From a virus, in IMG/VR virus record IMGVR_UViG_3300020457_000050, positions 1-31,091 of that record: a DNA stretch of 31,091 nucleotides. One strand, written 5' to 3'. How positions within the stretch are numbered: position 1 is the first letter of the stretch; every line of letters begins with the position of its first letter. Below the pieces are notes generated by a model. It saw only the letters and a program-made list of their open reading frames with translations, searched no databases and had not been told where the DNA came from. Position numbers and translations under genes: made by a program. This document shows positions 21,565 through 31,091 of this stretch, piece by piece.

Positions 21565-24500
21565 ATGGCACTAACTCGTCTTAAAAATATCATTACGTCG
21601 AGGACTGGACGTATTATATACGTCAACCCCGACGATTTTGATGCATCGGATGCATTTGATAACCGAGGTAACTCTGCTTTGCGTCCTTTTAAGACGTTAC
21701 AACGTGCATTCCTAGAAGTAGCAAGATTTTCATATAGAGTGGGTCTATCAAACGACGAGTTTGATGCTTTCTCTATCTACCTCTATCCATCTGAGTATGT
21801 GATAGACAATAGACCTGGTTTAACTGACTATAATCAGATCCAACCATTTAATGAGAATACTAACTTTGACCTCACTTCCCCCTCTAACGAGCTTCATAAG
21901 TTCAATTCAACTTCTGGTGGCGTTGTCGTACCCAGAGGTTGTTCAGTCGTGGGATCCGACCTCAGAAGAACTAAGATTGTACCTAAGTATGTACCGTATC
22001 CAACAGTACAAGGATCCCTAGGTATCACTGCTGCTAACGAACCAGTTGAGTCTGCTATATTCAAACTCACTGGTGGTTGTTATTTCTGGCAGATGTCATT
22101 CTTTGATGGAGATAACACTGGTGTATACTATCGTGATGACCTATCACAGATAGCACCAAACTTCTCACATCATAAACTAACTTGCTTTGAGTTTGCTGAC
22201 GTACCAGACTTAGAGTTATACTATCAAAAGATTTCAAAAGGATACGCAGTTATCCCTGACACCTCTGGTATCATCTCACAAGACCAGATGCAACCAAGGG
22301 TCGAAGAAAACAGAATTGTTGGTCCAATTTCAGATGAATTTGCTGTATCACAGATCATAAGAAATGGACAAACTGCAACAGCATTTACAGTCGATGAGCT
22401 TGGCAACCCGAAGAATCATGGATTCTCCGTGGGTGTCGCTGTTAATATATCTGGTGTTACTGGTCCTACTGACCAAGATGCTCTCCTCTATAATGGATCA
22501 TTCTTGGTAACCAGTGCACAAGGAAACCAATTTACGTACCAGATGTCTGCTGAGCCATCAGGTAACGCACTAGGTAACAACGTCCTAGTTAAGGTCGAGA
22601 TTGATACAGTTGACTCTGCATCACCATACGTCTTCAACAACTCCTTACGATCTGTATGGGGTATAAATGGTATGCATGCAGATGGAGCAAAGGCAACTGG
22701 ATTCAAATCTATGGTTGTTGCCCAGTTTACAGGTATATCGCTTCAGAAAGATGACAGAGCGTTCGTACTTTACAACCAAACTACTGGGGCGTATGAGCCC
22801 CAAGCTTCGGGATCTGGTGCTCACATTAATGGACTCGCCAAATACCGAAAAGGATGGAGACACAGACACATTAAAGCGTCCAACGACGCATTCATTCAGG
22901 TCGTCTCGGTCTTCGCAGTTGGATTCGGGGATCATTTCTTCTCTGACTCAGGAGGAGACCTCTCGATTACCAACTCGAACTCAAACTTTGGTAACACTTC
23001 TCTCCGATCTAAAGGCTTTAAAGCAGCAGCATTCACGAAGGATAAAGCTGGACAATTAACTCACGTTATACCACCTAAATCTTTGAGTGATGTTGAGGAG
23101 ATATCTATCAACTGGGTGACCATTGATATCACAAAGACAAGAAGTGTTGCAGACCCAACAAAACTATTTCTCTACGGTTATACGGTAGAGACAGGCCGAC
23201 CACCAAGTAAGATTCAAGGATATACTGTAGGTGCTAGAAGGGATGATGTTAATACCCCTGATAGACTATATGTGCTCTTGATTGCCTCTGGTGCGTCTGA
23301 ACCTACTACACACTATGCTGAGATTAACCCAAGTGGTACCACAGTTACAGGTACTAGAGCAGGTGATGATGATTCACCAATTAAATGGGATGCTACAAAT
23401 AGTCAGTGGTATATACAAGTAGATGGAGCACAGAATACCATCTATACTACATTACAGGCACAGTCACTATACCAGAACCTAGGATTTACACCTACCACAT
23501 TCATTAGAAGGATTCCCGATGCTAGAAACTTGGTTGATAGGTTATACAGGTATCGCTATGTATTGGACAAGGATGCATTCCCTGTTCCAAGACAGCCCAT
23601 TACTGGTTTCGTTCTTCAGCCACGAAGTAGTGAAACCAACTCTCCAGCATATAGTAAAACCTATTACATATATTCTGTAGAAACACATCAAGTATTTGAA
23701 AGAGGTGTGACGGATGGTATCTATTATCTGACTATTCTTAATGCGTCAGTGTCACCATCAACATCTAACTTCAATGAGTTTGCATTCTCACAGGCAACGG
23801 TTGACCTCTACCCTGCATTTGACAGAGACAACCCAGTAGCAGACCCAACCGCTTCAGTATCCATAGCAAGTAACGAAACTCTTGGAGTTGTTACTACTAC
23901 TGACGGTGCATCTCCTACACCTAATGAGGACACACAAAGATCTATCACTAAGGAAACATCTCAGTTCCTATTACTAGAGACAGAGAACAACTTAGGATAT
24001 AATACTACTTCAAACGTATTGAATGGTATCTCAGTTACAGCACGACTAGGTGATGCAGAAGATCGTAAGATCGCACTGAAGTTGAATGCTGATAACTCAG
24101 TACAACCTATACTCTGTGAATTGCGAAGATACTCAATCCTCAGAGCATCAGGTCACACGTTTGAATACCTAGGATTTGGTCCAGGTAACTACTCAACTGC
24201 ATTCCCATCTACACAGGTAGAAGTACTAACGCCAGCAGCAGTCAGACTATCACAGTCACTGAAAGAAGCAGCAGGTGTTGCATACTACTCTGGTGTTAAC
24301 AGTGATGGTGAGTTGTTTGTTGGTAACCAGGTTATCAACCCAGTTACAGGTCAGATCACTAACGAAGATATTGCTCAACTTAACGTGTTGGGTGAGGAAG
24401 GTACCACTATTGAAACCTTCTCAGAGATTGTGCTTACCGATAAACTAACGGTTATTGGTGGTGCATCTAACCAATTGGAATCAGTATTCTCTGGTCCTGT

Positions 24501-25137
24501 TACATTCCAGAAGAAAGTAACGGTTCAGGATATATTCCAGACTCTAAACTTTACCTTATCTAACGATGATGGTACTGTTTTGAGAAATACTTTCCTTGCT
24601 GAAGATGACGGTACTGGTAACCCAGTAACAGAGGTAGGGGCAGCATATAATAGTGGTGACATAGCATATAACGTAGACTGGACACCAGGTACGTTTATGG
24701 GATGGATATATGACTCAGGCGTTTGGTATAAGTGGGGTCTGAGTGATACAGCACCAATACAATCTAGTAGATTTAGTGGTGTAACACATTATGGTATCGG
24801 TGAACCACCAGATGCACTCAATAGAATGAAGATTACAGGTAACGTTAAGGTTACTGGTGATATTGACGTAACTGGTAAGTATGGTTGTGCAGATAAGTAT
24901 TCACTCGCTACGGGTGTAAACTTAGGAAATAACGGGGTGATGTATGCAGGAGATGGTATTACAACTTCCTTCGCTATATCTCCAGGACACACAGCATATT
25001 CATTAATGGTATTTTTAAATGGTGTCTGTCAGAGACCAGGAATTGACTATACAGTCTCATCTAACGCATGTGACTTCTCAGTTGGTACCACACCTCAGAC
25101 AGGAGACAACATTCAAATTCGTGAATTGGTCATCTAA
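21565..25137 (+). CDS. giant structural/fibre protein with beta-helix-like repeats and C-terminal fibre domain
   Basis: A 1190-residue protein. N-terminus: MALTRLKNIITSRTGRIIYV, then NRGNSALRPFKTLQRAFLEV and the SIYLYPSEYVIDNRPG segment, which looks like a right-handed beta-helix entry. Further on are GVVVPRGCSVVGSDLRRTK and SITNSNSNFGNTSLRSKGF, both typical of parallel beta-helix rungs. The last ~80 residues (DGITTSFAISPGHTAYSLMV, FLNGVCQRPGIDYTVSS, then GDNIQIREL) form a compact domain found at the ends of many cyanophage fibre proteins. I cannot assign a T4 homologue. The size and late promoter suggest a major baseplate or side-fibre component. Confidence 0.7.
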   Translation: MALTRLKNIITSRTGRIIYVNPDDFDASDAFDNRGNSALRPFKTLQRAFLEVARFSYRVGLSNDEFDAFSIYLYPSEYVIDNRPGLTDYNQIQPFNENTNFDLTSPSNELHKFNSTSGGVVVPRGCSVVGSDLRRTKIVPKYVPYPTVQGSLGITAANEPVESAIFKLTGGCYFWQMSFFDGDNTGVYYRDDLSQIAPNFSHHKLTCFEFADVPDLELYYQKISKGYAVIPDTSGIISQDQMQPRVEENRIVGPISDEFAVSQIIRNGQTATAFTVDELGNPKNHGFSVGVAVNISGVTGPTDQDALLYNGSFLVTSAQGNQFTYQMSAEPSGNALGNNVLVKVEIDTVDSASPYVFNNSLRSVWGINGMHADGAKATGFKSMVVAQFTGISLQKDDRAFVLYNQTTGAYEPQASGSGAHINGLAKYRKGWRHRHIKASNDAFIQVVSVFAVGFGDHFFSDSGGDLSITNSNSNFGNTSLRSKGFKAAAFTKDKAGQLTHVIPPKSLSDVEEISINWVTIDITKTRSVADPTKLFLYGYTVETGRPPSKIQGYTVGARRDDVNTPDRLYVLLIASGASEPTTHYAEINPSGTTVTGTRAGDDDSPIKWDATNSQWYIQVDGAQNTIYTTLQAQSLYQNLGFTPTTFIRRIPDARNLVDRLYRYRYVLDKDAFPVPRQPITGFVLQPRSSETNSPAYSKTYYIYSVETHQVFERGVTDGIYYLTILNASVSPSTSNFNEFAFSQATVDLYPAFDRDNPVADPTASVSIASNETLGVVTTTDGASPTPNEDTQRSITKETSQFLLLETENNLGYNTTSNVLNGISVTARLGDAEDRKIALKLNADNSVQPILCELRRYSILRASGHTFEYLGFGPGNYSTAFPSTQVEVLTPAAVRLSQSLKEAAGVAYYSGVNSDGELFVGNQVINPVTGQITNEDIAQLNVLGEEGTTIETFSEIVLTDKLTVIGGASNQLESVFSGPVTFQKKVTVQDIFQTLNFTLSNDDGTVLRNTFLAEDDGTGNPVTEVGAAYNSGDIAYNVDWTPGTFMGWIYDSGVWYKWGLSDTAPIQSSRFSGVTHYGIGEPPDALNRMKITGNVKVTGDIDVTGKYGCADKYSLATGVNLGNNGVMYAGDGITTSFAISPGHTAYSLMVFLNGVCQRPGIDYTVSSNACDFSVGTTPQTGDNIQIRELVI

Positions 25138-25161: not shown

Positions 25162-26025
25162 ATGTCCACCAAAATAATTGGTAATCAGATTGATGCCACA
25201 ACTAGAGCAATTATGGAGGCGTTGCAGTTAACAGAGCAACTTAACCTACCATCTCTGAACCAAGCAGCAGTAACAGCACTCGGTGCACCTGCCTATGGTA
25301 CTTTGGTGTACAACTCTACCGAGGACATGGCACAAATCTATAAGGCCGATGCTGCCCAGGGTGTGCCAGGATGGACAGACGTAGGTGGAGGTGGTCCTTC
25401 AGTTGGTGAGAATAGTATAATCAGGACTAATGGTACCACAATATCAGAGAATTTAACAATAGGTCCAGTTGCTAACGGTGGTGTAGAATTTACCAACGGT
25501 TTTAGTGCAGGTCCTATTACGATTGCGAATGGATATACAGTAACTATTGAAAACGGTGCATCATGGAACATCATTGGTGGTGAAGGTGATGTTAACTTTG
25601 AAGCAGCGTCAGTAACAGCAGTAGATATAAACTCAACAGGTATACTTCATTTCTCAGAGACGAAAGAGAGTATCACATATTATAATGCTAGTGGTAATGT
25701 TTCCCACGATTTTGATAACAATAATACTATTTGGATAGTTAAATCATCTGACGGAGACTGGACATTATCTCTTACAGATGTACCAGCAAATGGTTGTGGA
25801 TATGGTATAACAGTTATAGTAGAGAATGCTGGTGGAGCAGGTATACCAAATGCACTTAATATCAACGGTGTATCACATAGTATACACTGGGCTGGAGGAT
25901 CACCACCAGGACATAATGAGACTTTGATTGTAGTATCCTTCGGTATAGTTGATAAACCACCTGAAAATGCTGATACTGGTGAGTCATACACTGTATTTGC
26001 ATCAGGTGTTAACTACGCAGGTTAA
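25162..26025 (+). CDS. tail fibre-like protein
   Basis: A 287-residue protein. The N-terminal ~75 residues (MSTKIIGNQIDATTRAIMEA, then APAYGTLVYNSTEDMAQIYK and WTDVGGGG) form the helical/beta connector seen in cyanophage fibres. Then come Gly/Asn/Thr-rich beta strands (NGGVEFTNGFSAGPITIANG, VTIENGASWNIIGGEG) resembling a beta-helical shaft. The C-terminal ~110 residues carry a globular domain with NGCGYGITVIVENAGGAG and a SIHWAGGSPPGHNET loop that may be a receptor-contact site. It has the strongest ribosome-binding site of the window. It is followed two bases later by the next gene. Confidence 0.65.
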   Translation: MSTKIIGNQIDATTRAIMEALQLTEQLNLPSLNQAAVTALGAPAYGTLVYNSTEDMAQIYKADAAQGVPGWTDVGGGGPSVGENSIIRTNGTTISENLTIGPVANGGVEFTNGFSAGPITIANGYTVTIENGASWNIIGGEGDVNFEAASVTAVDINSTGILHFSETKESITYYNASGNVSHDFDNNNTIWIVKSSDGDWTLSLTDVPANGCGYGITVIVENAGGAGIPNALNINGVSHSIHWAGGSPPGHNETLIVVSFGIVDKPPENADTGESYTVFASGVNYAG

Positions 26026-26027
26026 CC

Positions 26028-26861
26028 ATGTCGGCATTCGGTTTTAAATCAATATTTGTCCCAACTGGTAGGGGTATGGCCCATACTGGTGGTATGGGTG
26101 GTGATGGATCGACTGGTGGTGGAGGAGGAGGACCAAGTGGACCTACGGGAGCATACGGACGTGCACTCAATTTGAATACAGCATTACAGGGTTCTGGATG
26201 GTCATATAATAACTATAGTAGTATAATTAATAAGATACAGGAGTATCAGTTCATGGTAGTTGCCACACCTAGATATGGTGCTATGGCAGAATCTATGGGA
26301 CAGCAGAACCCTGTTACTGGTGGTGGTTATTTCTATCGACAAGAATTTGCTAGTGGTAACCAGATTGAAAACTCTGCTGGATTTCCTAATCCAACATATA
26401 ATGGTATACCTTTCTTAGGAATGGTAGGTTGGAGAGATAGTACCTATTATGGTATTCAATTCAACTTCTATCGTGACTATGGATCTAGAGATTTGAGAGG
26501 ACTATTCTATCCAGTACAGTGGAGGAACCTCTACACATTTGTTATAAATGCTAATGGTAGTGAGAGAGATGAAGGTAGTAGTAGTGCACGAACCTATTTC
26601 TCTGACAACAGTAGTCAGGGTAGTAATGGATATTATCAGGACAACAGGTTCTCTGCTGATGATGGTGTCTGGGGTTGTAACATGATAGGTGATGTCAACG
26701 GTGACTCACCTGGTCCTCGATTGAGTAACAACTCAGGTTATAGTTATGGTTGCGAAAACTATCATGCTGGTGACTCATCTGGTCCCTCACAGTATTTCTA
26801 CTGGGGTGGTCAGTATTCATCAACATCATATACGTTCTTCGTGTTTAGAGGAACCGCATAA
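26028..26861 (+). CDS. Gly/Tyr/Ser-rich fibre-tip-like protein
   Basis: A 277-residue protein with a Gly-rich linker (residues ~17-45: THTGG-type, GGMGGDGSTGGGGGGPSGPT) followed by an aromatic-rich globular part. It has many Tyr, Asn and Ser residues (SGWSYNNYSSIINKIQEYQF, GGGYFYRQEF, GWRDSTYYGIQFNFYRDYG) and two Cys (in VWGCNM and GYSYGCEN). It has no resemblance to known enzymes. Composition and location just upstream of the Gly-rich triplet suggest a receptor-binding or accessory tip protein. The late promoter for the triplet overlaps its stop. Confidence 0.6.
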   Translation: MSAFGFKSIFVPTGRGMAHTGGMGGDGSTGGGGGGPSGPTGAYGRALNLNTALQGSGWSYNNYSSIINKIQEYQFMVVATPRYGAMAESMGQQNPVTGGGYFYRQEFASGNQIENSAGFPNPTYNGIPFLGMVGWRDSTYYGIQFNFYRDYGSRDLRGLFYPVQWRNLYTFVINANGSERDEGSSSARTYFSDNSSQGSNGYYQDNRFSADDGVWGCNMIGDVNGDSPGPRLSNNSGYSYGCENYHAGDSSGPSQYFYWGGQYSSTSYTFFVFRGTA

Positions 26862-26864
26862 ATA
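26857..26864 (+). promoter_or_regulatory. late promoter CATAAATA overlapping a stop codon
   Basis: CATAAATA contains the stop TAA (26859-26861) of the fibre-tip-like gene and starts 34 bases before the next ATG (26891). AGGAAG at 26874-26879 is the ribosome-binding site. Confidence 0.7.
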
Positions 26865-26890
26865 AATACATATAGGAAGATAGTAATCAC

Positions 26891-27700
26891 ATGGCACAGT
26901 TAAACCTGGGAGCTATTAAAGATACGGCAGGGATCGGAGGTTTCACCTTCAGTTCTGGTGGCATTACAGCGAACGGCACCTTAACTGTTAATGATCTGGT
27001 TATCAACGGCAATATTGCTGGATCTTCTGCATATATTCTCCCAAGTCCATCAGGACAAACCGATAAGTATGTTACCAATAATGGATCCAACCTAACGTGG
27101 GGTACATTATCAACAACTTCAGGTGTGAGATCGATGCAGGTCTGGACATCTAATGGTACATGGAGTAGACCGAATGGTGTTAAAACCATTATGGTTACTG
27201 TCACTGGTGCTGGGGGTGGTGGATCTGGATATACTGAATCTGGTGGTGCTGGAGGTACTGCTCAGAGACAGGTTGATGTTACTAATGTTTCGTCAGTTTC
27301 GGTCACAGTAGGTAATCCAGGTGGAGGTTCTAATTACTCAGGTTGCGGTGGGTCTGGTAACTCATCAAGTTTTGGTGGGTATTGTAGTGCCTCTGGAGGT
27401 TACGGAGCCAATTGCAGAACTCAACATGCAGGTGGTATCGGAGGTAACGGATCTGGAGGGTCTCTAAATGTCTATGGTGGTGGAGGAAACGGTCACGGTT
27501 CTCACCACAGTTATGGAAACCATACTGCTGGATCTAGTTACTGGGGTGGTACTCAACCATCATCTCACTCACAAAGAAACTATGCACACAACCATCAAAG
27601 TCATTGTGCATGGGGATCAGGTGGTAACGGAGCACAGCATGGTGGTCGAGGTGCTAGAGGACGTGAAGGAGTCGTCGTAGTGCATGAGTTCTACGGATAA
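26891..27700 (+). CDS. glycine-rich adhesin-like fibre protein, copy 1 of 3
   Basis: A 269-residue protein. N-terminal ~75 residues: GAIKDTAGIGGFTF, the GGITANGTLTVNDLVINGNI strand repeat and a PSPSG turn, a connector shared with the two next genes. Residue 81-93: SMQVWTSNGTWSR, then a strand (TIMVTVTGAGGGGSG) and a Gly-rich region (~106-260) with runs of GG and SG, Cys at 152, 165, 175 and 239, and a His-rich stretch (residues ~202-240). The end is GARGREGVVVVHEFYG. The composition resembles polyglycine-rich phage adhesin tips (gp38-type). No enzymatic motif is seen. It has its own late promoter, and another lies at its stop. Confidence 0.75.
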   Translation: MAQLNLGAIKDTAGIGGFTFSSGGITANGTLTVNDLVINGNIAGSSAYILPSPSGQTDKYVTNNGSNLTWGTLSTTSGVRSMQVWTSNGTWSRPNGVKTIMVTVTGAGGGGSGYTESGGAGGTAQRQVDVTNVSSVSVTVGNPGGGSNYSGCGGSGNSSSFGGYCSASGGYGANCRTQHAGGIGGNGSGGSLNVYGGGGNGHGSHHSYGNHTAGSSYWGGTQPSSHSQRNYAHNHQSHCAWGSGGNGAQHGGRGARGREGVVVVHEFYG

Positions 27701-27703
27701 ATA
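27696..27703 (+). promoter_or_regulatory. late promoter GATAAATA overlapping a stop codon
   Basis: GATAAATA spans the stop TAA (27698-27700) of copy 1 and starts 28 bases before the copy 2 ATG (27724). Confidence 0.65.
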
Positions 27704-27723
27704 ACACAGGACAGATTTAACTT

Positions 27724-28533
27724 ATGTCTAAGCTAAAAGTTGCAGCACTAAAAGATTTAACAGGATCCCAAGGGTTTATGCTCTCAGGGGGTGGTATAAC
27801 TGCGACGACCACTCTAACTGTTTCAAATTTGGTCATTAACGGTGCTATAAGTGGAGGATCTACTTATAACGTGCCTGATCAGGGTGGTAATGCTGGTAAG
27901 GCATTGAGATCTACTGGTGATGGTTTTGAATGGGCAGAAGTATCAGCAGCATCTGGTATTCGCTCTATGCAAGTTTGGACATCTAATGGTACATGGACTA
28001 AACCAACTGGTGTCACGAGTATTATTGTTACTGTAGTAGGTGCTGGTGGAGGTGGCAGTGGATTCTGTGAATCTGCTGGTGCTGGTGGTACATCTGAGAG
28101 AGTTATTGATGTTACCAACGTATCTTCAGTATCAGTATCAATAGGTAATCCTGGCGGAGGTACAAACTACGCTGGATGTGGAGGAAGTGGTAACTCATCA
28201 AGTTTTGGTGGTTATTGCTCTGCTTCAGGAGGATATGGTGCAAACTGTAGACAGCAACACTCAGGAGGTATTGGAGGAAACGGATCAGGTGGTACTCTGA
28301 ATATTTACGGTGGAGGTGGTAACGGTCATGGATCATATTGGTCATTCGGATCACACCAAGCAGGTGCTTCATCAATGGGAGGTTCGCAACCATCATCCCA
28401 TAACCAAATGAATTATGCTCATAGGCATCAATCACACTGTGCTTGGGGTGCAGGTGGTAATGGATCTGGTCACGGTAACCGTGGTGCCAGAGGTCGTGAA
28501 GGTGTCGTTATCGTTCAGGAGTTCTTCGGATGA
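27724..28533 (+). CDS. glycine-rich adhesin-like fibre protein, copy 2 of 3
   Basis: A 269-residue paralogue of the upstream gene, same length and layout. The connector differs moderately (MSKLKVAALKDLTGSQGFML) and the central SMQVWTSNGTWTK segment is nearly unchanged. The Gly-rich core from SSVSVSIGNPGGGTNY to SGGYGANC is almost identical. The tip region differs: HGSYWSFGSHQAGASSMGG versus HGSHHSYGNHTAGSSYWGG in copy 1. An extra Cys appears in GSGFCESAG. It is preceded by a late promoter; its stop overlaps copy 3 (ATGA), so copies 2 and 3 are cotranscribed and coupled. Confidence 0.75.
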   Translation: MSKLKVAALKDLTGSQGFMLSGGGITATTTLTVSNLVINGAISGGSTYNVPDQGGNAGKALRSTGDGFEWAEVSAASGIRSMQVWTSNGTWTKPTGVTSIIVTVVGAGGGGSGFCESAGAGGTSERVIDVTNVSSVSVSIGNPGGGTNYAGCGGSGNSSSFGGYCSASGGYGANCRQQHSGGIGGNGSGGTLNIYGGGGNGHGSYWSFGSHQAGASSMGGSQPSSHNQMNYAHRHQSHCAWGAGGNGSGHGNRGARGREGVVIVQEFFG

Positions 28534-29351
28534 GTGTTCTTAAAGTATCAGGAGTATCAGACCTTGCTGGATTGGGAGGATTTTCCTTCAATTCAGGTTC
28601 TATCACTGCCAATGGAACACTACGAGTCCAAGATATTAATATCAACGGTGATATAACAGGGTCATCAAATTACAATATCCCAAACCTTTCAGGTAATACA
28701 GGTAGGTTCCTAAGCACTGATGGTACCAATCTGATTTGGTCTACAGATTTTGAAGGTGGTGGAGGTGGAGCAGGTTTCAGATCTATGCAGGTCTGGACAT
28801 CTAATGGTACTTGGAATAAACCAAGTAACTGTAAGTCCATCAAGGTAGTTGTAGTCGGTGCTGGTGGCGGGGGATCTGGTTATTGTGAGTCAGCAGGTGC
28901 TGGTGGATGCTCACAAAGAGTTATTGATGTTACTAACGTATCATCAGTATCAGTAAGTATTGGTAACCCAGGTGGTGGTACAAACTACTCAGGTTGCGGT
29001 GGTAATGGTAACAGTTCTTCCTTTGGAGGATACTGCTCTGCATCAGGTGGATATGGTGCCAACTGTAGGACACAACATGCAGGAGGTATCGGTGGTAATG
29101 GATCTGGTGGAAACCTCAACATATATGGTGGAGGTGGAAACGGATATGGATCATGGGGTAGATATGGTAACCACAACTGTGGAGTATCATACATGGGTGG
29201 ATCTCAACCTTCGAGTCACAACCAAGCAAACTATGCCCATAGACATCAGTCCCATGCAGCGTGGGGTGCTGGTGGTAACGGATCCATGTTTGGTAACAGA
29301 GGAGCGAGAGGTCGTGAAGGTGTAGTCGTAGTTTATGAATACTACGGTTAA
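28530..29351 (+). CDS. glycine-rich adhesin-like fibre protein, copy 3 of 3
   Basis: A 273-residue paralogue, starting in the stop of copy 2. Central SMQVWTSNGTWNKPSNCKS keeps the shared motif and the Gly-rich core is close to copy 2 (ESAGAGG, SVSVSIGNPGGGTNY). In the tip, YGSWGRYGNHNCGVSYMGG replaces the copy 1/2 sequences. The Cys found in HQSHCAWG in copies 1 and 2 is Ala (HQSHAAWG), while a new Cys appears in GNHNCG. Two more Cys lie in GSGYCESAGAGGCSQ. It ends GREGVVVVYEYYG. As in copies 1 and 2 it is probably a trimeric fibre tip. A late promoter follows at the stop. Confidence 0.75.
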   Translation: MSVLKVSGVSDLAGLGGFSFNSGSITANGTLRVQDININGDITGSSNYNIPNLSGNTGRFLSTDGTNLIWSTDFEGGGGGAGFRSMQVWTSNGTWNKPSNCKSIKVVVVGAGGGGSGYCESAGAGGCSQRVIDVTNVSSVSVSIGNPGGGTNYSGCGGNGNSSSFGGYCSASGGYGANCRTQHAGGIGGNGSGGNLNIYGGGGNGYGSWGRYGNHNCGVSYMGGSQPSSHNQANYAHRHQSHAAWGAGGNGSMFGNRGARGREGVVVVYEYYG

Positions 29352-29357
29352 TAAATA
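29350..29357 (+). promoter_or_regulatory. late promoter AATAAATA overlapping a stop codon
   Basis: AATAAATA begins within the TAA (29349-29351) of copy 3, 30 bases before the next ATG (29380). GGAG at 29364-29367 is the ribosome-binding site. Confidence 0.65.
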
Positions 29358-29379: not shown

Positions 29380-29811
29380 ATGTCTAAAGTAGCAATTTGT
29401 AACGCTGAATCAGGTCAACTCACAGACATCTGCGATGAAGCAGATAAGTTTGCAATTTATGAGGGACCAGATGCAACACTTAAGTGGGTAGATGTCCCAG
29501 ATGACACAACCTACGAACATTTTATGTGTAATGGTGAAGTAATTCACAGATCAACAACAGAAGATTTAAGAGTCAATGCAAATGTCGATAGGATATTAGC
29601 ATATGGTGATTTCGGTGAGCAGATGGACATGCAATACCGAGATGCAGTTAATGGTACTACTGAGTGGAAAGACCATGTTGCAAATGTAAAGGCAACAACC
29701 ACTAAACCAGATAGTATTCCAGCATTTGTAGAAGATCCTAAGAAAGTCCAGTTAGTTGGACGTAAGGCATGGGAACCATGGGTTGACAACTGGACTCCAC
29801 CTGTGTCATAA
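29380..29811 (+). CDS. 143-residue protein following the fibre block, possible fibre accessory/assembly factor
   Basis: A 143-residue protein. N-terminal half: MSKVAICNAESGQLTDICDE and FAIYEGPDATLKWVDVPDD, beta-rich. Middle: NVDRILAYGDFGEQMDMQYR followed by DAVNGTTEWKDHV, a helical pattern like the 'R--aY---geQ-Dm-y-d---g---w' seen in small phage tail proteins and tail-fibre assembly factors. No signal or membrane segment is present. It sits after the Gly-rich triplet and before the halogenase, with its own late promoter. A chaperone or structural accessory role is a guess from place and composition. Confidence 0.62.
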   Translation: MSKVAICNAESGQLTDICDEADKFAIYEGPDATLKWVDVPDDTTYEHFMCNGEVIHRSTTEDLRVNANVDRILAYGDFGEQMDMQYRDAVNGTTEWKDHVANVKATTTKPDSIPAFVEDPKKVQLVGRKAWEPWVDNWTPPVS

Positions 29812-29832: not shown

Positions 29833-31091
29833 ATGAAAGATATTGTCGTTGTGGGAGGTGGCACCGCAGGTTGGATGACTGCTGCTACCATGGTAAAAGC
29901 ATATCCAAAAGCAAACATAACTGTGTACGAAGATGAACAATCCCCTGCTACTGGGGTTGGAGAATCTACGACACAGTTTTTTCGTAAGTGGTTATATTAT
30001 GTTGGAATAGAAGATGAAGAGTGGATGAAGGAGTGTGATGCTACCTATAAGATTAGTGTACAATTCCACGACTTCCATAAGAAAGGGGATCTCCCATGGC
30101 AATATCCATTTGGATTGCCTAGGACTGACACATATACCCCTGATATGTGGTTTTATAAGCAATATAAGGACAAATGGCCCTCAGATGGATTGGCAAGAGA
30201 TTATTACCTAGCAGCAGAATGTGGTGCTAGAAATAAACTACCTGTTACTGATAATCCTTGGTTCAATGTCAAACACAATAGTGGATTTCATTTTAATGCA
30301 GTAAAATTTTCTGCATGGTTGAGAGATAACTATTGTTTACCTAAAGGTATTAAGCATAAGAAGAAGAAAGTTAATAAGAAGAAACTACCTAAGCATGATA
30401 TATTATTTGATTGCACAGGATTTAAGTCAGTCTTTAATGATTCACCATGGGTGAGTTATGAGGACTATCTACCAAATAATAGTGCATGGGTAACACGTGT
30501 ACATTATGATGATAAGAATGAGCAGATCAAACCTGTTACTGATTGCACAGCATTAAGTAGTGGATGGGTATGGAATGTACCTACCTTTGATACTATAGGT
30601 ACAGGGTATGTTTATTGTGATAAGTTCATTTCGCCAGAGGATGCCCGAAATGAATTCAGGGAACATCTAACAGATAATGTACAGTCTGATTGTGGGGTAT
30701 ATGGAGATACAATGTTCCGTCAACTTAAATGGAAGACAGGACGTAAGGAAGAAGTATGGAAGGATAATGTAGTATCGATTGGATTATCTGCTGGTTTCAT
30801 TGAACCATTAGAATCTAATGGATTGTTATCTATTCATAACTATCTCCTGATGTTGGTACGTGTGCTAGAGGATAGACCAGTACATACTCAGTTTATGAGA
30901 GATACTTTCAATGAGAATTGTAAGTATACCTTTGATGCATTTGCATCATTCGTCTCTATGCATTATGCTTGTACTCAGAGAGATGATTCACCATATTGGA
31001 AGCATGTTAGCAGTATTAAATACCCTAACCACCATATGATACAGACTGCACAGATTAATTTCTTGGAGGAGTCAAGTAACTTTGGTCAGAA
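29833..31091 (+). CDS. prnA: tryptophan halogenase family flavoprotein (3' end outside window)
   Basis: The ATG at 29833 opens a frame that stays open to the window end, giving at least 419 residues. FAD fold: VVVGGGTAGWMTA (GxGxxG variant, residues 5-17) and GVGESTTQFFRKW (41-53). The halogenase catalytic lysine is K73 in DATYKISVQFHDF. The halogenase-specific WxWxxP motif is W245-V-W247-N-V-P250, and further on are GFIEPLESNGLLSI and the YTFDAFASFV helix. The family uses reduced FAD, O2 and halide to chlorinate or brominate tryptophan or similar rings. The substrate here is unknown. There is no obvious promoter; the 21-base gap suggests cotranscription with the 143-residue gene. Confidence 0.9.
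   Translation, partial: MKDIVVVGGGTAGWMTAATMVKAYPKANITVYEDEQSPATGVGESTTQFFRKWLYYVGIEDEEWMKECDATYKISVQFHDFHKKGDLPWQYPFGLPRTDTYTPDMWFYKQYKDKWPSDGLARDYYLAAECGARNKLPVTDNPWFNVKHNSGFHFNAVKFSAWLRDNYCLPKGIKHKKKKVNKKKLPKHDILFDCTGFKSVFNDSPWVSYEDYLPNNSAWVTRVHYDDKNEQIKPVTDCTALSSGWVWNVPTFDTIGTGYVYCDKFISPEDARNEFREHLTDNVQSDCGVYGDTMFRQLKWKTGRKEEVWKDNVVSIGLSAGFIEPLESNGLLSIHNYLLMLVRVLEDRPVHTQFMRDTFNENCKYTFDAFASFVSMHYACTQRDDSPYWKHVSSIKYPNHHMIQTAQINFLEESSNFGQ

Follow-up and report, generated by a model that had tools for sequence, protein, structure and literature searches.

On balance, we consider that three tandem genes of a T4-like cyanophage encode position-specific distal subunits of the tail-fibre tip, which would together present one matched receptor-binding head. 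The genes (269, 269 and 273 aa, all on the plus strand; Table 1) lie in a 31-kb virus record that is most similar to T4-like cyanophages and has P-TIM40 (host Prochlorococcus NATL2A) as its nearest isolate; the whole stretch analysed, 31,091 nt, is referred to as the window. In the proposed arrangement, each protein would carry a C-terminal head with a TNF-like and polyglycine-lattice fold of the Pam3 gp24 type, presumably host-contacting, and an N-terminal connector that may fit each subunit to its own position, with trimerisation and docking assumed by analogy to Pam3. The heads would probably be kept matched by occasional recombination between copies together with selection for one shared head, a step that is shown in some relatives and inferred for the window. 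How the abundant T4-like cyanophages of Prochlorococcus and Synechococcus recognise their hosts is poorly understood, and the tail fibre proteins of these phages have been reviewed as largely 'missing' (PMC2984593). The locus provides a syntenic, defined module for the tip, for which a structural prototype exists and in which the docking part is told from the head by evolution and an adjacent slot gene is the part replaced between close relatives.

Table 1. Features of the tip module in the window (positions count from the first letter of the window).
Feature	Position	Strand	Basis or remark
1190-aa tail fibre protein	21565..25137	+	phrog_529; 80-92% identical in other window-clade relatives
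287-aa fibre-associated protein	25162..26025	+	conserved neighbour; phrog_29506
277-aa protein, hypervariable slot	26028..26861	+	homologue found in no relatives other than L004 and L005
Two overlapping NATAAATA late-promoter-like motifs before copy 1	26857..26868	+	consensus in PMC2984593
Copy 1, 269-aa putative fibre-tip protein	26891..27700	+	ORF; phrog_863 E 5.8e-60; fold matches Pam3 fibre
Copy 1 connector (residues 1-79), copy-specific	26891..27127	+	trees group by copy; no same-genome excess
Copy 1 head (residues 80-269), predicted TNF-like and glycine-rich	27128..27697	+	pLDDT mostly 90+; residues 151-250 group by genome
NATAAATA late-promoter-like motif before copy 2	27696..27703	+	motif search
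Copy 2, 269-aa putative fibre-tip protein	27724..28533	+	ORF; phrog_863 E 2e-59
Copy 2 connector	27724..27960	+	aligned to copy 1
Copy 3, 273-aa putative fibre-tip protein; ATGA overlap with copy 2	28530..29351	+	ORF; phrog_863 E 1.3e-53
Copy 3 connector (residues 1-83)	28530..28778	+	aligned to copy 1; four extra residues
NATAAATA late-promoter-like motif before 143-aa gene	29350..29357	+	motif search
143-aa protein, possible tip chaperone	29380..29811	+	always adjoins copies; top (non-significant) structure match Pam3 gp25

Family membership and predicted fold

The original prediction was of three tandem adhesin-like genes sharing an MQVWTSNGTW motif and a glycine-rich stretch, and the open reading frames and their alignment agree with it. 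At the protein level, the stretch is nearly identical in all copies from SSSFGGYC to GGNGSGG. The phrog_863 profile spanned the whole protein for each copy. With the Pfam model Gly_rich_2 (PF21722; curated cut-off 24.3), copies 1 and 3 scored above the cut-off (29.5 and 42.1) and copy 2 slightly under it (22.9). A single chain of copy 1 was modelled with AlphaFold2 and compared with structures using Foldseek. The model had a pLDDT of 82 overall, was poor in residues 1-50 and showed the TNF-like and polyglycine-lattice fold of Pam3 gp24. Its best PDB match, at rank 1, was the Pam3 fibre 7YPX (E 1.8e-8, TM 0.53, probability 1.00), followed by weak hits on the glycine-rich domain of ALK/LTK; the best viral match was Syn9 gp38. 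The phrog_863 match and the Pam3-type predicted fold support assignment to a fibre-tip family, as had been proposed from the adhesin-like appearance of the genes. Residues H233/H235/H238 vary hardly at all within the window and P-TIM40 clades. A metal site of the HxH type, as in T4 gp37/gp12, was rejected, these residues not being kept in S-WAM1/P-RSM6-type or Sf-FP1-type copies.

The likeness to Pam3 gp24 and its chaperone gp25 (7YPX; PMC9608196) lies in the predicted TNF-like and glycine-rich head and in a possible chaperone gene nearby. Pam3 has one fibre gene, whose product has an alpha-helical shaft and forms a homotrimer (PMC9608196), whereas the window has three paralogues, no helix is predicted in residues 1-79 (where model confidence is low), and sequence searches gave no credible relative of solved structure for the three copies or the 143-aa protein. 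The model of the 143-aa protein (pLDDT 92) has a beta N-terminal half and a helical C-terminal half. Its top PDB match was the Pam3 gp25 chaperone (7ypx_a), at a non-significant E of 1.8 and probability of 0.10, and its Pfam hits were weak and inconsistent only. Some pelagiphage proteins share the C-terminal module of the 143-aa protein and match no other part of it. This resembles the pattern described for chaperones of this type, in which the N-terminal part varies and the C-terminal part is conserved (PMC9608196). The 143-aa protein may be the common assembly chaperone of the tip.

Age of the three-gene set and divergence of its parts

The window copies are 68-71% identical to each other in protein and 66% in DNA, with silent sites saturated (dS about 1.4-1.7) and longest shared DNA runs of 17-26 bp, so they are not recent duplicates. 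The long near-identical stretches originally reported between them therefore hold for the protein and not for the DNA. In a tree of 95 copies, copies 1, 2 and 3 formed separate orthologous groups in the window's clade, where the copies are orthologous by position, and we found 27 distinct sets with three full copies (window included). Together, these results show that the set is old and has been maintained, the product of an early triplication whose order was kept. Three copies also occur in distant loci (46-59% identity) and in the isolates S-RIM44, Sf-FP1 and Sf-FR1; these loci and isolates have other connector types, each type common to all three copies of one genome. The closest isolate, P-TIM40, has three copies (gp042-gp044) at the equivalent place and differs in its middle copy of 529 aa, which in this clade carries an extra ~260-aa C-terminal domain. 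The Syn9 gp38/gp39 pair and the 'tail fiber assembly' pairs of S-WAM1, P-RSM6 and S-SZBM1 share family and neighbourhood with the window but number two copies, not three, and those of S-WAM1 and S-SZBM1 are about 46-52% identical to the window's. For S-CREM1 one copy is annotated, and our search matched two places in its record; copy number across the wider family ranges from one to three. The maintenance of three copies suggests a multi-part tip.

The copies had been described as having a conserved core and variable tips, and the pattern proved to be the inverse. Between copies of one genome, the N-terminal ~79 residues are 43-49% identical and the tip patches 75-79%, so that the largest differences lie in the connector and the heads are conserved. 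Across 17 window-clade genomes, connector identity was 0.66 between orthologues and 0.45 between same-genome copies, compared to 0.87 and 0.89 in the Gly region and 0.755 and 0.77 in the tip. Same-genome copies matched better than different-genome copies in the TNF, Gly and tip regions (0/2000 permutations), and the same comparison gave no such excess in the connector; regions and thresholds were picked after a first look at the data, and the permutation counts here and below are descriptive. In trees of 13 genomes, the connector (residues 1-79) required 2 changes by copy, the minimum, and did not group by genome. The head (residues 151-250) required 23 changes by genome against 31.2 when shuffled (0/200), and 16 by copy against a shuffled mean of 18.9 (15/200), which is weak at most. 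The switch from grouping by copy to grouping by genome falls at residue ~76-85, that is, at MQVWTSNGTW. These comparisons of sequence indicate, on statistical grounds, that heads in the window's clade are kept matched within each phage and connectors kept different, and the heads, which group by phage, thus evolve together within one phage. Distant clades also have a same-genome excess in the Gly region and, to a smaller extent, in the connector. Heads of the P-TIM40 clade have no same-genome excess, and their tips are copy-specific (0.96 between orthologues, 0.79 between same-genome copies).

Adhesins of the T4-superfamily gp38 type (Salmonella phage S16) resemble the window proteins in their glycine-rich motifs and in having a fibre-tip gene downstream of a large fibre gene. 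In the gp38 adhesins, variation lies in hypervariable segments that separate the Gly motifs, whereas the window-type head is among the most conserved parts of the protein and its Gly-rich region has no such segments, as the orthologue identities above indicate. S16 gp38 was absent among the 50 structure matches listed for copy 1.

A more tentative extension, to which we give rather less than even weight, is that the three paralogues form a single mixed (hetero)trimeric tip rather than three homotrimers. Their separate connectors would then fit an asymmetric site, and gene conversion and selection would keep the heads similar, allowing them to pack together and to bind as a single receptor-binding surface. 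Unlike the Pam3 fibre, such a tip would not be a homotrimer, and it would account for the recurrence of three copies in distant clades. Titles and abstracts from the part of the literature covered gave no clear precedent for phage fibre paralogues that evolve in concert or form mixed trimers.

The original prediction allowed for heteromeric or alternative tips; if alternative, each copy would have a different receptor and recombination among them would shift host range. We regard this second reading as unlikely, although some head positions distinguish the copies (e.g. 205-206, 212-218 and 227-229), chimeric copies exist (L059 and L045, below) and heads of the P-TIM40 clade are copy-specific. 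In the window's clade, a head is as similar to the other heads of its phage as to its orthologues, heads group by genome and are less variable than connectors, and the gene that is replaced wholesale lies elsewhere, in the slot upstream of copy 1. Copy identity resides in the connector. The variable-tip idea does not fit the window's clade and could still apply to the P-TIM40 clade, and the results suggest that the three genes work together as a set rather than as interchangeable host-range variants.

A role in fibre assembly without incorporation into the virion, as the 'tail fiber assembly' label of both phrog_863 and RefSeq and the example of T4 gp38 suggest, seems improbable. The predicted fold matches a fibre head and not a chaperone, related Gly-rich domains sit at the ends of long tail fibre proteins (phrog_21412, phrog_6202 and phrog_454), and a separate chaperone-like gene lies next door. 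Least probable are redundant duplicates kept for dosage with drifting connectors: the heads are near-equivalent and copy number varies in the wider family, but drift alone would not preserve copy-specific connectors, whose orthology and order persist in many genomes, and sets of three reappear in distant clades.

Recombination among the copies

The position-specific subunits that we favour would have their heads matched in part by recombination, which had also been suggested from the similarity of the copies. Evidence for it was found in relatives: silent sites are strongly homogenised in L031, L032 and L041 (z 4-9; runs of 39-73 bp), a sign of gene conversion, and two candidate chimeras were seen. 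In the window itself it was undetectable, with no silent-site homogenisation (z -0.2 to 1.4) and no clean donor tract from the other copies at the SNPs that separate it from the near-identical L004 and L005; recent gene conversion in the window was rejected on these grounds. Eight other genomes of the thinned set showed a clear silent excess in residues 80-150 and none in the Gly and tip regions, which therefore match at the protein level only. Either selection or an older conversion whose silent sites have become saturated since then would account for this.

The first candidate chimera, L059 (contig IMGVR_UViG_3300006329_000009), joins copy 1 to copy 2 with a crossover at codon ~155. At informative sites, 169/181 on the left match copy 1 and 115/116 on the right match copy 2; its flanks share about 97-98% identity with L023. 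An assembly artefact is possible. The second, L045:1822-2627, is a single copy with the N-terminal part of copy 1, the C-terminal part of copy 3 and a frameshift near the junction, and may be an assembly error. The two contigs carry neighbouring metagenome numbers (3300006329 and 3300006334).

Compared to L004, about half of the 37 SNPs in copy 1 of the window fall in 82 nt of the connector (26932-27013). These are mostly unlike the phage's own other copies, which suggests exchange with another phage's copy 1. The 17-mer that had been noted in all three copies is exact at 27143, 27976 and 28794 (chance expectation 0). It was absent from every copy of 15 relatives tested and was discarded as a recombination or regulatory element.

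Gene neighbourhood and expression signals

In close relatives with enough sequence, the order is the 1190-aa fibre gene, the 287-aa protein, a variable slot, the copies, the 143-aa protein and tryptophan halogenase genes. Scattered copies unrelated to fibres, which would have spoken against a fibre-tip set, did not occur; synteny was kept. The slot (26028-26861) is replaced wholesale between relatives (compared in L006, L009, L010, L017, L018, L022 and L043), where it holds a Gly-rich protein, 260-275-aa proteins with an M..GFSG..GGGGG-like leader, oxygenase-like genes or nothing. The slot gene is a better candidate for host range than the copies. The extra domain fused to copy 2 of P-TIM40 (L047:7415-9004) is homologous to free-standing slot proteins elsewhere (L010:1467-2249, L018:3286-4077 and L035:1745-2542), and this module thus exists in fused and separate forms. 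It had no credible PDB or Pfam match, and a first impression from its sequence of a fibrinogen/intelectin-like domain was dropped, nothing having confirmed it.

As originally noted, copies 1 and 2 have late-promoter-like motifs in front of them, and an ATGA overlap joins copy 3 to copy 2. For cyanomyoviruses, NATAAATA has been published as the late motif (PMC2984593). Its core ATAAATA is over-represented on the plus strand (12 against about 5 expected), and several cores sit 27-34 bp upstream of a start. Of the 17 window-clade genomes, all have a TAAATA motif ahead of copy 1, 16 have one ahead of copy 2 and 11 ahead of copy 3; the ATGA overlap of copies 2 and 3 occurs in six. Coupling is therefore lineage-specific, and stoichiometric control by it, which had been suggested, was not supported: in 11 of the genomes copy 3 has its own promoter-like motif.

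Beyond the tip module lies a tryptophan halogenase gene (29833-31089, truncated where the window stops). Nearly all relatives have such a gene in this place, often paired, and isolates carry 2OG-Fe(II) oxygenases beyond it. At 850-2873 the window has two adjacent minus-strand ORFs (300 and 373 aa); its other long ORFs are all on the plus strand.
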